In this document: positions 253-50,816 of the stretch, piece by piece
Position numbering within the stretch: position 1 is the first letter of the stretch
Layout of the letters: the number at the start of each line of letters is the position of its first letter
Source: Prevotella sp.
GTDB lineage: Bacteria; Bacteroidota; Bacteroidia; Bacteroidales; Bacteroidaceae
Reading direction: 5' to 3'
Assembly (NCBI GenBank): GCA_017445845.1
Contig: JAFSRY010000099.1
Location: 1-50,816 of the forward strand
Length of the DNA stretch: 50,816 bases
Notes under the pieces: model-generated
The model's input: the letters and a program-made list of their open reading frames with translations, nothing else
The model's database searches: none
Told to the model about the DNA's origin: nothing
Position numbers and translations under genes: made by a program

Positions 253-320
253 TGATAAAAAAATAGACATCACAATGACTATTGCATCAGCTACTATGGA
301 GAAAACTATGACATCAAAAA

Positions 321-386
321 GTAAATTCGCCGATTTTGGTCAGTAAATTCGCCGATTTTGGTCAGCAAATTCGCCGATTTTACTTT
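321..386. repeat. 22-bp tandem repeat, three copies (core TCGGCGA type)
   Basis: Three abutting 22-bp units start at 321, 343 and 365. The first two are identical and the third differs at its ends. Read on the minus strand each unit is TGACCAAAAT, a 7-bp core CGGCGAA, then TTTAC. The centre is an imperfect palindrome. The same flanks with another core occur at 42690-42799. There are no spacers, so this is not a CRISPR array. Confidence 0.9.
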
Positions 387-419
387 AAGAAGTCTTAGCT
401 TCGGCTGAGGCAACTCATA

Positions 420-551
420 GGAACGGCAAGCAGAAAGCTAAGGAACGGCAAGCAGAAAGCTAAGGAACGGCAAGCAGAATGCTAAGGAATGACAAGCAGA
501 AATCAAAGGAATGACAAACAAGTAGCAATGATATGACAAAAGAAAAAGCAA
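420..551. repeat. 22-bp tandem repeat running into a start codon
   Basis: Units begin at 420, 442 and 464 (GGAACGGCAAGCAGAAAGCT then AA, nearly identical). They continue with increasing divergence at 486 and 508 (GGAATGACAA...). A sixth, degenerate unit at 530-551 matches about 13 of 22 positions of the fourth unit and contains the ATG of the following channel gene at 533. Bases 387-419 between this array and the previous one show no clear feature. Confidence 0.8.
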
Positions 552-9352: not shown

Positions 9353-9409
9353 ATAACAGTGTTAGCAAGCACTGATAAGCTGATTATCAATGCTTGCTAA
9401 CACTGTTAT
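9353..9409. terminator. Long hairpin between convergent genes (likely bidirectional terminator)
   Basis: Arms of 19 bp (9353-9371 and 9391-9409; TAACAGTGTTAGCAAGCA and its complement) enclose a 19-nt loop that contains its own dyad TGATAA/TTATCA. T and A runs flank it at 9347-9352. It lies between the converging OmpP1 and TPR lipoprotein genes. The right arm is also the first unit of a 22-bp tandem array, so it may be a repeat structure as much as a terminator. Confidence 0.6.
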
Positions 9410-9456
9410 CTGTACTTGCTAATACCGTTATCAGTGCTTGATAACACTGTCAACTC
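9391..9456. repeat. 22-bp tandem repeat, three copies (TGCTTGnTAACAC type)
   Basis: Units start at 9391, 9413 and 9435. The consensus is TGCTTGnTAACACnnTTATC followed by nG. The same unit family recurs four times at 22429-22516. Bases 9457-9521 hold no further clear repeat, apart from CCGATGCTTAG near 9472, which also appears (complement) at 42671-42682. Confidence 0.88.
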
Positions 9457-13454: not shown

Positions 13455-14453
13455 ATGAGCAAGATAAATGCAATTATCACCGGCGTTGGCGGCTATGTGC
13501 CCGACTATGTCCTCACCAACGAAGAACTGTCGCACATGGTAGACACCAACGACGAGTGGATAGTGACCCGCGTAGGTATCAAAGAGCGCCGCATCCTGAA
13601 AGGCGAAGGCTTGGGAACCAGCTTCATGGCTACCAAGGCCGCCGAGTTGCTGCTGCAGAAGACGGGCGTAGATCCCGACAGCATCGACGCGCTCATCGTT
13701 ACCACCACTACTCCCGACTATAAGTTTCCTTCAACAGCATCGCTGACGTTGGGACGACTTGGGCTGAAGAATGCCTTCGCCTTCGACTTCTCCGCTGCCT
13801 GCTGCGGATTTCTCTATTCGCTCGACGTGGCCGCACAGATGATCAAGACAGGGCGCTGCAAAAAAATTATCGTCATCGGAGCCGATAAGATGTCATCGAT
13901 GGTCGACTATACCGACCGTCAGACCTGCGTGCTCTTCGGCGACGGTGCCGGTGCAGTGTTGGTAGAGGCAACAGAGGAAGAGAACGTCGGCGTGCAGGAT
14001 GCTTACTTCCGCACCGATGGTATCGGCTATCCTCATCTTCACATGGTTGTCGGAGGCTCCGTATGCCCACCCACAAAGGAAAATGCCCAGACACCCGAAG
14101 CTTACCTCTATCAGGAGGGCCGCACAGTGTTCCGCTATGCTGTCACGGCAATGAGCGACGATGTGCTTGAAATCATGAAACGCAACGGCCTTCAGGCTGA
14201 CGACGTGCAGTGGGTAGTGCCTCACGAGGCCAACCTGCGCATCATCGAGACCGTGGCCAAGCGGGCAGAAATCCCAATGGATAAGGTGATGGTGAACATC
14301 GAGCACTATGGCAACACCAGTGCCGCCACCATTCCCCTGGCACTGTGGGACTTCGAGGACAAGCTGAAAAAAGGCGACAACGTCGTCTTCACCGCCTTCG
14401 GCGCAGGCTTCGTTCATGGTGCCTCTTACTATAAGTGGGCCTATAACAAATAA
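13455..14453 (+). CDS. fabH: 3-oxoacyl-ACP synthase III
   Basis: This 332-residue condensing enzyme joins acetyl-CoA and malonyl-ACP to start fatty acid synthesis. The catalytic Cys116 lies in DFSAACCGFLY. The His is in VPHEANLRI and the Asn in HYGNTSAATIPLAL. The glycine-rich end is FGAGFVHGASYYKW. Placement after rpmF is the classical arrangement linking lipid and ribosome synthesis. Confidence 0.97.
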   Translation: MSKINAIITGVGGYVPDYVLTNEELSHMVDTNDEWIVTRVGIKERRILKGEGLGTSFMATKAAELLLQKTGVDPDSIDALIVTTTTPDYKFPSTASLTLGRLGLKNAFAFDFSAACCGFLYSLDVAAQMIKTGRCKKIIVIGADKMSSMVDYTDRQTCVLFGDGAGAVLVEATEEENVGVQDAYFRTDGIGYPHLHMVVGGSVCPPTKENAQTPEAYLYQEGRTVFRYAVTAMSDDVLEIMKRNGLQADDVQWVVPHEANLRIIETVAKRAEIPMDKVMVNIEHYGNTSAATIPLALWDFEDKLKKGDNVVFTAFGAGFVHGASYYKWAYNK

Positions 14454-14458
14454 GAAAT

Positions 14459-14531
14459 GAGAAATGGGAAATGAGGAATGAGAAATGGTTGGGTAGTGTC
14501 CCGCCAGGTTCATTCCTCATTTCTCATTCTT
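14459..14531. repeat. Inverted repeat of the GAAATGAGGAATGA family (copy 1)
   Basis: GAAATGAGGAATGA (14468-14481) and its exact complement TCATTCCTCATTTC (14510-14523) are embedded in stretches of 8-bp AATGAGAA-like steps on both sides. The loop is 28 nt. The element fills the gap between fabH and era. A second copy with the same arms and a different loop is at 19425-19498. Confidence 0.85.
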
Positions 14532-14567
14532 CTTTTCACATTTCTCATCTCTCATTATTCATTCATT

Positions 14568-19424: not shown

Positions 19425-19498
19425 GAATGAGAAATGAGAAATGAGGAATGAGCCTGCCGGAATAGGCACCATTCATTCCTCATTTCCCATTTTCTCAT
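19425..19498. repeat. Inverted repeat of the GAAATGAGGAATGA family (copy 2)
   Basis: GAAATGAGGAATG (19438-19450) pairs with CATTCCTCATTTC (19474-19486), again inside AATGAGAA-type steps. It occupies the gap between the glutaminase-like gene and the TerB-DnaJ gene. The arms match copy 1 at 14459-14531 and the loop does not. Confidence 0.85.
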
Positions 19499-22404: not shown

Positions 22405-22428
22405 AATTATCATCGCAATCCTTAACAG

Positions 22429-22516
22429 TGCTTGTTAACACCCTTATCAGTGCTTGATAACAGGCACGCCAATGGTTGATAACACGATTATCTGTGCCTG
22501 TTAATACCCGTTACAA
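22429..22516. repeat. 22-bp tandem repeat, four copies (TGCTTGnTAACAC type)
   Basis: Units start at 22429, 22451, 22473 and 22495, sharing T-G-[CG]-[CT]-TG-n-TAA-[CT]-A and a TTATC-like end. The family is the same as at 9391-9456. It stands downstream of the nuclease gene and upstream of the glutaminase-like gene. Confidence 0.85.
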
Positions 22517-41070: not shown

Positions 41071-42399
41071 TCAGATGGTTCCGCAAATATATTTAATTCG
41101 ATAATAAGCAAAGATAATTCCGATGCGCGCGTTCACCTCCTGCAGTTCGGCATTGAGCTTGAGGTTGGAGGCATCCACCATGTCGGTGATGAGAGCCAGC
41201 TGGTTGAGGTAGCGGTCGCTGACCACCTGGTAGTTCTGGTCGGCCAGTTCGACACTCTTCAGCTGTGTCTGCCATTCCACGAAGGCTTGCCGGTAGAGGG
41301 TCTCGGCAGAATACACGGCATTGTCGACGGTCTCCCTGACGACGTTCAGCTCCTGCTGCTGGCGGAAGGCATCGGTGCGGGCCTGTTGCAGCTTGCGGTT
41401 GCTCTTGAAGAGCGAGCTGAGGCTGTACTTCAAGCCTACGCCGACATACCAGAAGTTGACGTTCTTGTCGATGGGGGGAATGTCATAGGTGAACGGTCCT
41501 GAGAAGTTGTCGGCGGCAAAGAGTGCCACCTTCGGCAGCAGCTCACTGCGTGCCATGCGTTCGCGCTGTCCAGCCATCTCCACGTTGAGCTGTGCCAGCT
41601 GCAGCTGCGGCGTGTTGGCAAGGGCCGTTTCGAGCGTCCCTGACCCCGTCACGGTCTGCATCTGTGCCACCGTTGAGTCGGGTTCGATGACGGTCCCTGC
41701 GGGAAGTCCCAGCGTCGTGCAGAGCTGATGGTTGAGGATAGACAGCTGGTCTTGCAGCTTGCGGAGCCCTAACTTCAGCGTTTCCATCTGCAACTCATAG
41801 CGAGTGACATCATTCTGCAGCGCCATGCCTTGACGGTATTTCTCACTGATGTCCTCCGTCAGCCGGCGGGTCAGCTCGATGTTCTGCTTGTAGACCCTCA
41901 CGCTGTTGCTGAGCTTGAAGAGGTCGAGATACTGTCCTAACGCACTGAAACGCAGCTGGCGGCGCGTCTCGTTGACACCCACCGTCGCTTGCTCCCGACC
42001 CAGTTCCGCCATGCGGATGGCCGACGACTGGGCACCGCCGGTGTAGAGGGCCTGCTGGGCTTCCAGGGCGAATGAATTACCGAAATGGGGCGCATGATAG
42101 CCGTGCACATCACCGAACGAGCGGTTCGTGATGAGCACATTGCCATTGTAGCTGGCCGAGAGAGAAGTCGTGATTTCCGGCAGTCGCTCAGTTTTGGCTG
42201 ATGCGACCCCGAGGTCGGCAAATTGTACGCCCGTCTTCGCGCTTTGAAGACTACTACTGTTTGTTTCTACTAACTGGAATAATTCTTCTACGGTCAATGT
42301 CTTGCGGGTCAGCGGAACACTCTCGTTCCTGCCCTGTGCTGTCGCTGAACATGCGCCCATGGTCAGCATGACAAGCACACTCAATTGTCGTAATTGCAT
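41071..42399 (-). CDS. TolC-family outer membrane protein of the EmrAB-like operon
   Basis: This 442-residue protein has a leader MQLRQLSVLVMLTMGACSAT with Cys17, so it may be a lipoprotein. Two outer membrane efflux repeats follow: LTVEELFQLVETNSSSLQSA through KTGV, and NTPQLQLAQLNVEMAGQRER, with GLKYSLSSLFKSNRKLQQAR near the second turn. It heads the operon, 46 bp before the HlyD gene. The frame stays open 86 codons further upstream, but that stretch crosses the -7 box and a 22-bp repeat array. The start is therefore at 42399. Confidence 0.92.
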   Translation of the reverse strand: MQLRQLSVLVMLTMGACSATAQGRNESVPLTRKTLTVEELFQLVETNSSSLQSAKTGVQFADLGVASAKTERLPEITTSLSASYNGNVLITNRSFGDVHGYHAPHFGNSFALEAQQALYTGGAQSSAIRMAELGREQATVGVNETRRQLRFSALGQYLDLFKLSNSVRVYKQNIELTRRLTEDISEKYRQGMALQNDVTRYELQMETLKLGLRKLQDQLSILNHQLCTTLGLPAGTVIEPDSTVAQMQTVTGSGTLETALANTPQLQLAQLNVEMAGQRERMARSELLPKVALFAADNFSGPFTYDIPPIDKNVNFWYVGVGLKYSLSSLFKSNRKLQQARTDAFRQQQELNVVRETVDNAVYSAETLYRQAFVEWQTQLKSVELADQNYQVVSDRYLNQLALITDMVDASNLKLNAELQEVNARIGIIFAYYRIKYICGTI

Positions 42400-42431: not shown

Positions 42432-42557
42432 CGAAAAAAACTTCAGAACCGACCCCGTATATATAGTGATTATTAGTCTTTATTAACATCAACACGGAGC
42501 GGGGGACTGAGTAGTTACGGAGCGGCTCCATCGTCATCACCATCTTCTTATCCTCAT

Positions 42558-42865
42558 TATACAGCCTTCCCTCAGCCCCGATACAGCCCATCCTTCGTCC
42601 CGATACAGCCCATCCTTCGTCCCGATACAGCCCATCCTTCACCCCGATACAGCCCATCCTTCGTCCCGAAGCTAAGCATCGGAAAAGTAAAATAGCCTAT
42701 TTTACCGACCAAAATAGCCTATTTTACTGACCAAAATAGCCTATTTTACTGACTAAAATAGCCTATTTTACTTTGCAAAATAGCCTATTTTATATCAACG
42801 ATGCACTTTTTTGGCCTTATCGAAAGCGGCAAACGGCGTTATCGAAAGCGGCAAACGAGGTAAAG
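42558..42865. repeat. 308-bp mosaic of fourteen 22-bp units
   Basis: Units start every 22 bp from 42558 with no spacer. Five are of the type GATACAGCCCATCCTTCGTC plus CC (42558-42667, the first diverged). One is a singleton, GAAGCTAAGCATCGGAAAAG plus TA (42668-42689). Five are of the type AAATAGCCTATTTTACTGAC plus CA (42690-42799). One is mixed (42800-42821), and two are of the type GAAAGCGGCAAACGGCGTTA plus TC (42822-42865). The AAAATAG-C-CTATTTT centre of the third type is a perfect palindrome around one base. The array stands between the efflux operon promoter and the clpB terminator. Confidence 0.92.
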
Positions 42866-42899
42866 AAAAAGCAGGCAGGAACCGTCCGTTCCTACCTGC
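42866..42899 (-). terminator. Terminator of clpB
   Basis: Minus strand: GCAGGTAGGAAC, loop GGACG, GTTCCTGCCTGC (one T-G wobble), then TTTTT. It stands about 120 nt after the clpB stop. The stretch 42900-43021 in between contains an AGATTTAAATCT palindrome and no gene. Confidence 0.8.
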
Positions 42900-43021
42900 T
42901 TCCGTATCATTTTTCCTTCAACGTTGACTTCGCCGACCTTTGGTCCGGAAGTCGTGAATTCATCTGTAGTAATGCCAAGTGAGTCAGGATTAAGGAGATA
43001 GATTTAAATCTCACCTCTTGC

Positions 43022-45529
<2,508 letters not shown>

Positions 45530-50470: not shown

Positions 50471-50620
50471 CAAAAAAAACTTCGGACACTTCCATGAAAA
50501 GTACGTTTTTTTGAATACAACGTGAAAAATTGATAGACTTTGAAAGACATCACGGATTTCTTAGGCCCTCCGTGTATCATGTCATTAAACATGATGGAAA
50601 TGGCTCCGGTGATGGCCCCA

Positions 50621-50816
50621 TTGACTTCGTCTTCGTCCGTCACGACTCGGCATACTTCATGCGAGCATGGTCTGCCCTCGCTGCTCCGGACGTTGACTTC
50701 GTCTTCGTCCGTCACGACTCGGCATACTTCATGCGAGCATGGTCTGCCCTCGCTGCTCCGGACGTTGACTTCGTCTTCGTCCGTCACGACTCGGCATACT
50801 TCATGCGAGCATGGTC
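50621..50816. repeat. 72-bp tandem repeat reaching the window end
   Basis: Units start at 50621, 50693 and 50765 and are identical as far as can be seen, the third being cut by the window end. The unit starts TTGACTTCGTCTTCGTCCGT and contains a short hairpin CATGC-GA-GCATG. Because 72 is a multiple of three, frames on both strands stay open through it (24-residue repeats). Neither has a convincing start and neither shows a known protein. Bases 50471-50620 before it hold ATCATGT-ACATGAT, a 7-bp dyad (50577-50596), and no gene. Confidence 0.85.

Follow-up and report, generated by a model that had tools for sequence, protein, structure and literature searches.

Bacterial tandem repeats whose length is constant while their sequence varies have been described by Subirana & Messeguer (PMC8161180), who count only arrays of at least four repeats. 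They report lengths of 20-21 and 52 nt in Bacillus and, in many groups, repeats of 20-23 nt within individual species. According to the available portions of that study, the repeats are mostly non-coding and species-specific, with exceptions among near relatives, and a short motif and its reverse often occur within one repeat. A protein polymerising on the DNA is suggested there, and the constancy of length is reported, in the same portions, without an account of what fixes it. Among the Bacteroidales, excerpts of the report on BrickBuilt of P. gingivalis (PMC4596501) place one copy, BrickBuilt_16, between a multidrug efflux gene and clpB, and note that strain W83 also has tandem repeats of 22 and 41 nt. 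Palindromic sequences have been catalogued at the RNA level as well, with 250 candidate RNAs from human microbiomes (PMC8040213, in part). In the portions of open-licence literature searched, no description of 22-bp arrays in Prevotella was found. The arrays reported here belong with the constant-size, variable-sequence repeats of bacteria (PMC8161180), and the preliminary description of the locus, which knew of no described element with this behaviour, has to be revised on this point, since such repeats of 20-23 and 52 nt are in print.

The window, by which we mean the whole stretch of 50,816 nucleotides analysed, is an entire contig (C64) of a Prevotella sp. draft genome of 2.46 Mb that is 75.5% complete. 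Fourteen contiguous 22-bp steps in a single phase had been reported at 42,558-42,865 and are indeed present: identity over this interval is 0.703 at lag 22, 0.572 at lag 44 and 0.479 at lag 66, against a maximum of 0.379 in 1000 dinucleotide shuffles across lags 10-59. The natural register of the 14 units lies one base earlier, at 42,557-42,864, and is split by TRF into three arrays of period 22. From left to right it holds one decayed unit, four copies of CGATACAGCCCATCC, the linker CGAAGCTAAGCATCGGAAAAGT, five copies of AAAATAGCCTATTTT, a second decayed unit and two inverted CGA-type units. The outermost left unit (TTATACAGCCTTCCCTCAGCCC; 42557..42578, without assigned strand) is a decayed CGA-type unit by the register table and lag-22 match. 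It is followed on the + strand by four CGA-type units, CGAT-ACAGCCC-ATCC-TTCGTCC with TTCACCC in the third (42579..42666; TRF arrays and register table), in which CGATACAG is common to the flank unit 2 consensus of other elements, and by the linker CGAA-GCTAAGC-ATCG-GAAAAGT (42667..42688, + strand), which matches the core-adjoining unit of other copies (flank unit 1 consensus, 48 flanks). The core (42689..42798, + strand; TRF and register table) consists of five palindromic units, AAAA-TAGCCTA-TTTT, with 7-bp spacers. To its right the register table gives, on the - strand, a decayed CGA-type unit in the linker position (42799..42820) and two inverted CGA-type units (42821..42864), CGAAAGCGGCAAACG... 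being the reverse complement of CGTTTGCCGCTTTCG....

When read in register, the left CGATACAGCCC... units, the singletons CGAAGCTAAGCATCGGAAAAGT and CGATGCACTTTTTTGGCCTTAT, and the right CGAAAGCGGCAAACG... units all carry a CGA...TCG frame in variable states of decay, which also surrounds other copies of the element (24 copies in one analysis, 21 in others). The five AAAATAGCCTATTTT units are the sole type outside this lattice and form a distinct, dispersed core. The earlier picture of several unrelated unit sequences plus a singleton is thus right as regards AAAATAGCCTATTTT and wrong as regards the outer types and both singletons, which fit one lattice; of the four supposed types, three resemble CGA units that have diverged, so that part of the diversity is ordinary divergence. 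The retention of the period through a change of unit type was borne out, both in the window array and at other loci.

Two genes on the - strand flank the array: one with a ClpB Pfam domain, whose stop lies at 43,022, and one for an outer-membrane efflux protein with the Pfam domain OEP, whose start was placed at 42,399. The efflux protein is 76% identical to a protein of a Prevotellaceae MAG and 69% identical to one of a Prevotella sp. MAG; a match in a Prolixibacteraceae MAG is distant (22%). A strong hairpin at the array edge (42867..42903; fold of -26.9 kcal/mol on the - strand) is perhaps the end of the clpB transcript; a terminator scan there gave no site meeting its rule. The window holds four more intergenic 22-bp arrays: at about 316-385 (- strand; reverse complement approximately AAAATCGGCGAATTTACTGACC, sharing the core's spacer frame with different inner arms), 412-520 (+ strand; AGGAACGGCAAGCAGAAAGCTA), and 9382-9452 and 22413-22467 (no strand assigned; both resembling the GATA/TATC family introduced below). 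No Rfam family reached its gathering score within the window. Tandem repeats also occupy both contig ends (84 bp x3.1 at 1-265; 72 bp x2.7 at 50617-50816), where the assembly probably broke. Heptamer repeats resembling AATGAGA occur at 14448-14563 and 19426-19452 and are a likely source of minor 7-, 14- and 21-bp signals here, and perhaps in relatives.

Autocorrelation of intergenic DNA, the check proposed in the preliminary description, shows an excess at 22 bp in the sampled part of the genome. Our sample covered 794 kb of the 2.46 Mb, window included; a simple gene caller based on hexamers assigned 87 kb of it to intergenic DNA. Stretches masked over more than half of their length were left out, and some stretches came from core-carrying contigs, away from the known core places. 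In the intergenic part of this sample lag 22 gave 34 clusters, of which the window holds six; certain arrays yielded more than one. By comparison, there were seven at lag 14, six at lag 21 and at most three at each remaining lag within 13-33. A count of identical 5-mers, which requires no model of the families, gave, per 10,000, 216 at lag 22, 135 at lag 44 and 91 at lag 66, the median being 21. Several unlike families share the 22-bp length, including AAAA, GATA, GACC, CGA and others. In the sample without chosen core loci, nine of ten core matches had an in-phase neighbour, the tenth lying at a contig end. The step is strict, measuring 22 bp in 70/70 steps across 24 elements; this count joined hits only where their distance was 22, 44 or 66 bp, and scans with free gaps agree with it among the places listed.

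In register, the families read AAAA-7-TTTT-7, GATA-7-TATC-7, GACC-7-GGTC-7 and CGAT-7-(T)TCG-7, that is, four-base half-sites at 11-bp spacing in alternating orientation. Free-gap scans, which may return the nearest partner alone, found a gap of 7 in 33/33 GATA pairs (gaps of 0-25 allowed) and, throughout the matches listed, in GACC pairs (57 counted) and core pairs (40 counted, whole genome); reversed-pattern controls of these scans gave no matches. CGA, AAAA and GATA units share a common dyad phase. Around 21 core arrays, CGA fell at phase 0 in 68/125 flank occurrences, with 33 more at phase 13, mostly overlapping TCGA, and TCG fell at phase 12 in 55/94; around ten GATA arrays, TCG fell at phase 1 in 24/34 and CGA at phase 11 in 16/38. 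These phases therefore place CGA, AAAA and GATA units on one lattice. Phasing around six GACC arrays was weak (P 0.006 and 0.25). Complementarity across the axis set by the core was 0.57, 0.46, 0.34, 0.33 and 0.29 for flank units 1-5, and 0.40, 0.45, 0.44, 0.33 and 0.36 across its antipode. In units 2-4 none of the other 22 - 2 axes scored as high as these two, the rest not exceeding 0.29; the antipode in unit 1 was tied at 0.40 by a different axis, and in unit 5 the core's 0.29 was surpassed by an axis that reached 0.32. A palindrome test taking the maximum over axes for each array was weak (p<=0.05 in 10/50), and fixed-axis tests were used instead.

The phase outlasts the sequence, persisting where substitution is nearly saturated. 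A shift test used the 42 flanks of 21 core elements, the other three of the 24 having too little flank; each flank unit was compared with the profile of the other loci at shifts of -8 to +8, unit 1 only at shifts of 0 or below. The best shift was 0 in 41, 38, 31 and 28 of the 42 flanks for units 1-4, and in 12/42 for units 5 and 6. Identity between elements across units 1-6 was 0.50, 0.40, 0.35, 0.32, 0.28 and 0.27, and within elements across units 1-4 it was 0.58, 0.43, 0.35 and 0.30. The elements thus have a conserved core from which conservation decreases towards the edge on both sides, nearing background by units 5-6, and copies stand at many intergenic sites. Half-site slots were more conserved on average than the remaining positions in unit 2 (0.53 v 0.32), unit 3 (0.39 v 0.33) and unit 4 (0.34 v 0.31), and less so in unit 1 (0.47 v 0.52). 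The scarcity of indels in flanks could partly reflect ascertainment or ectopic conversion. The idea that left and right flanks co-evolve as arms of one long hairpin was rejected, with at most a weak signal in unit 1.

Spacers within five-unit cores are position-specific and common to different loci, the first being ACCGACC in 9/11, and whole elements have therefore probably been copied among loci. Among 154 distinct AAAA-7-TTTT members in the sequences analysed, all three inner-arm pairs match in 109, with differing pair types (TAG.CTA, CAA.TTG, TCG.CGA and GGT.ACC). Identical halves are rarer than expected under independence in GATA centres (4/34 vs 8.8) and GACC centres (1/26 vs 10.2), which argues that a simple perfecting of palindromes is not the whole story. 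An asymmetric 7-bp centre inverts between adjacent GACC units (AGCCTTT / AAAGGCT or a near form) with half-sites unmoved, at C53:14969, C94:46264 and C102:6498 of this genome. Layering was visible at three loci (L017, L108 and L210), where AAAACAA-type palindromes flank AAAATAG-type ones on both sides, and this order was absent from two others (L002, and L215 of genome G044, a relative's genome that is 99% complete and has the core). A separate repeat ending ...GTGTCTAGTGAAATCAGGAAAAGTCA has three genome copies at up to two mismatches (L008, L014 and L018, on contigs C52, C81 and C87); all three adjoin a core array, at a distance of no more than about one unit and each at a different position, with a contig end always closer than 150 bp, and the repeat looks like a mobile element inserting at core arrays.

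With respect to genes, 34 of the 36 catalogued clusters of this genome have under half of their length in called genes and the arrays are accordingly non-coding; the exceptions are window positions 42569-42672, covered by an upstream extension of the efflux reading frame, and one cluster inside a called gene (L034). Counted per gap in the genome sample, arrays occupy 12 tandem, eight convergent and five divergent gaps, the window array being entered twice in the tandem rows with wrong distances caused by the extended efflux gene; all gaps of at least 200 bp number 60, 23 and 21, respectively. In a wider, partly selected set of 40 arrays the corresponding numbers are 13, 13 and 14, and in 12/13 of its tandem gaps the array lies closer to the upstream stop. 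Among the clpB downstream regions listed for the same genus, most are without a lag-22 cluster, and the adjoining gene differs in those inspected; three (L051, L052 and L055) carry other 22-bp palindromic arrays.

Samples of roughly 10 to 200 kb from each of the other genomes indicate that 22 bp recurs within the genus, and that it is neither universal there nor proved to be confined to it. In the 5-mer counts of same-genus genomes, lag 22 is the first-ranking direct lag for G017 and G023. A CRISPR spacing puts it second in G010, and lags 41, 44 and 67 precede it in G016, where it is fourth. The G010 sample includes near-identical repeats at a 77-bp step with differing spacers, an ordinary CRISPR by look (L085, 10637-11601). 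One clear 22-bp array is present in G040, and 40 kb of G061 contained none; repeats of 7 or 21 bp take the lead in G001, G022 and G008, with G008 still having one 22-bp array and lag 22 in fourth place. The core pair itself occurs in 3/150 same-genus genomes, this one included. Arrays of 22 bp elsewhere in the genus are built on other palindromes, and unlike palindromes are found at GC contents of 29, 39, 44 and 52-53%. A search for the orthologous site by a second anchor matched in 5/60 genomes (own included), weakly outside our own, and two patterns searched against viral contigs gave no matches. In other families, lag 21 leads or nearly so in G025, G031 and G038, and an array in G025 repeats about eleven times at 21 bp, with constant and variable columns (CCGTCCGAAGGTTGTCGTTTA; L115, 1702-1931). 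A pooled 100 kb from G027, G028, G030 and G033 has lag 22 on top (138 vs median 73), with four lag-22 clusters that are AT-rich or weak in look.

Arrays with a 41-bp step were present in G012 and G016. In G016, where palindromes with arms of at least six were tabulated, ten of the eleven palindrome centres of one array (L078, 2762-3441) fall at phase 25 mod 41 while TCCGAG types give way to TTCGGCC types; the remaining centre, TTCCAA, lies at phase 24. The eight palindromes of a second array (L080, 16-615) include TTCCCAA types at phase 34, TTTCCC types at 33 and one other at 15. The nearly in-phase exchange of palindromes is thus not limited to 22 bp.

From these data we favour, as a tentative account that is quite possible though short of probable, a window locus that is one copy of a dispersed, layered array, serving as a spacing-constrained lattice for a putative polymerising DNA-binding protein and grown by in-phase amplification. 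Four-base half-sites stand every 11 bp, alternately inverted, such that orientation and nearly the same helix face return each 22 bp, and the persistence of phase suggests that evolution is preserving the spacing rather than the letters. A putative oligomerising DNA-binding protein, or related proteins, would fill successive half-sites, whereby selection would hold the spacing, and may nucleate on the conserved core and spread over the weaker flanks. Growth would proceed by the gain of whole 22-bp units near the centre, through in-phase slippage or unequal exchange; older units would be displaced outward, and phase would be kept through a change of type. The kept spacing, the slots that are on average better conserved in units 2-4, the 11-bp steps and the graded conservation are together what would be expected of a cooperative DNA-binding protein. 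The main weakness of the protein reading is the number of half-site families: the four would have to be served by several proteins or by a single, loosely specific one; the other palindromes of other genomes, together with the 41-bp arrays of one, also make sequence-specific binding an incomplete account. The preliminary description had proposed either a process that measures about two helical turns or a multimeric molecule that selects the spacing. A multimeric protein, an idea already in print for Bacillus repeats (PMC8161180, in part), is still the best reading, and a measuring enzyme is unneeded, since in-phase slippage or unequal exchange suffices to keep phase when a new type is amplified. 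That an enzyme measuring 22 bp adds or rewrites units appears very improbable to us: units do change in phase, and the period is identical across families, but ordinary in-phase unequal exchange on a spacing-constrained array yields the same picture.

A purely mutational origin seems possible but rather unlikely. Hairpin-prone minisatellites would slip by whole units and template switching would mend their palindromes, the phase being inherited from an old 22-bp ancestor with no selection involved. This accords with units that are alike within arrays and unlike between them, with the covariation of inner arms (109/154 fully paired), with the inversion of asymmetric centres in some GACC arrays and with the almost in-phase palindrome swaps of the 41-bp relative. 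Neutral drift should, however, add indels, and phase outlives near-saturated substitution in most flanks; 22 bp is constant for unlike palindromes in genomes of GC 29, 39, 44 and 52-53%; and fewer GATA and GACC centres have identical halves than independent halves would give. The common position-specific spacers of five-unit cores at different loci (ACCGACC first, 9/11), and the whole-element copying that they make probable, would fit a MITE-like mobile element with an internal minisatellite as cargo, its copies spread by a transposase in trans, much as the BrickBuilt of P. gingivalis is a spacer-free 23-nt tandem unit dispersed between genes (PMC4596501, in part). We nevertheless find this improbable, as no sharp ends were seen and conservation fades across units 4-6, several families on one lattice are left unexplained, and a search for the Y1/RAYT transposase family (PF01797), the only one searched, gave no match in this genome (75% complete), the domain being present in 15/20 genomes searched.

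We strongly doubt that transcribed hairpin arrays working as RNA, in 3'-end stability, termination or as an RNA sponge, explain the pattern, since hairpins do not require equal 11-bp spacing of half-sites and gaps between divergent genes hold arrays as well. The proximity of arrays to the upstream stop in 12/13 same-strand gaps speaks for such a role, as does the better fold of the window array on the strand to which clpB and the efflux gene belong (-105 v -68 kcal/mol). Against it, the sense strand was more stable in just 7/13 arrays other than the window array, G-T and A-C mismatches numbered 10 v 6 with no clear signal, and Rfam at its gathering score had no match in the window; the strand tests (sense stability and G-U) thus lent the RNA reading no clear signal. 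Extended to the genus, the protein-lattice reading becomes a bolder proposal that we consider speculative and on the unlikely side: Prevotella chromosomes would carry dozens of dispersed nucleation-and-spreading platforms for a putative DNA-binding polymer, each with a palindromic high-affinity core and weaker half-sites on a rigid 11-bp alternating lattice, whose half-site 'dialects' would be exchangeable in phase and which would evolve in the manner of centromeric satellites in miniature, young at the centre and old at the edges.

Set against known systems, the arrays share with REP (PMC3733652) and BIME sequences their nature as short, often clustered intergenic palindromes, and differ from them in the fixed 22-bp step, which the available portions of that source do not describe for REP. 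REP elements carry a GTAG or CGTC tag. Unlike CRISPR, with its identical repeats and unique spacers, they consist of contiguous units whose 7-bp spacers are few and recurrent. They resemble BrickBuilt in being intergenic Bacteroidales elements with spacer-free tandem units and dispersed copies, whereas BrickBuilt, as portrayed in the excerpts of PMC4596501, has one unit family, a leader, a tail and IS5-like terminal repeats, and our arrays are without sharp ends as far as seen; its 23-nt unit also differs from the 22-bp step found in 70/70 steps of 24 elements. The closest likeness is to the repeats of Subirana & Messeguer: one length dominates the genome (34 clusters at lag 22 vs 7 for the next, 794-kb sample), several unlike families (AAAA, GATA, GACC, CGA and others) share that length, their sequences are species-specific save among near relatives (core pair in 3/150 same-genus genomes, other palindromes elsewhere), and they are not protein-coding (34/36 clusters less than half gene-covered). 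They differ in their length of 22 bp with several unit types per array on a common phase, in the 11-bp alternating half-site lattice, in layering and in a phase that outlasts sequence, all unmentioned in the available portions of PMC8161180. Alternating 11-bp half-sites, with a phase common to three unlike families and a spacing that outlasts sequence, offer a concrete and testable answer to the length puzzle, and such lattices should be recognisable elsewhere by phase rather than by similarity. Relative to those portions, what is new here is the phase common to families, the 11-bp alternating lattice and the keeping of phase where sequence is nearly lost.
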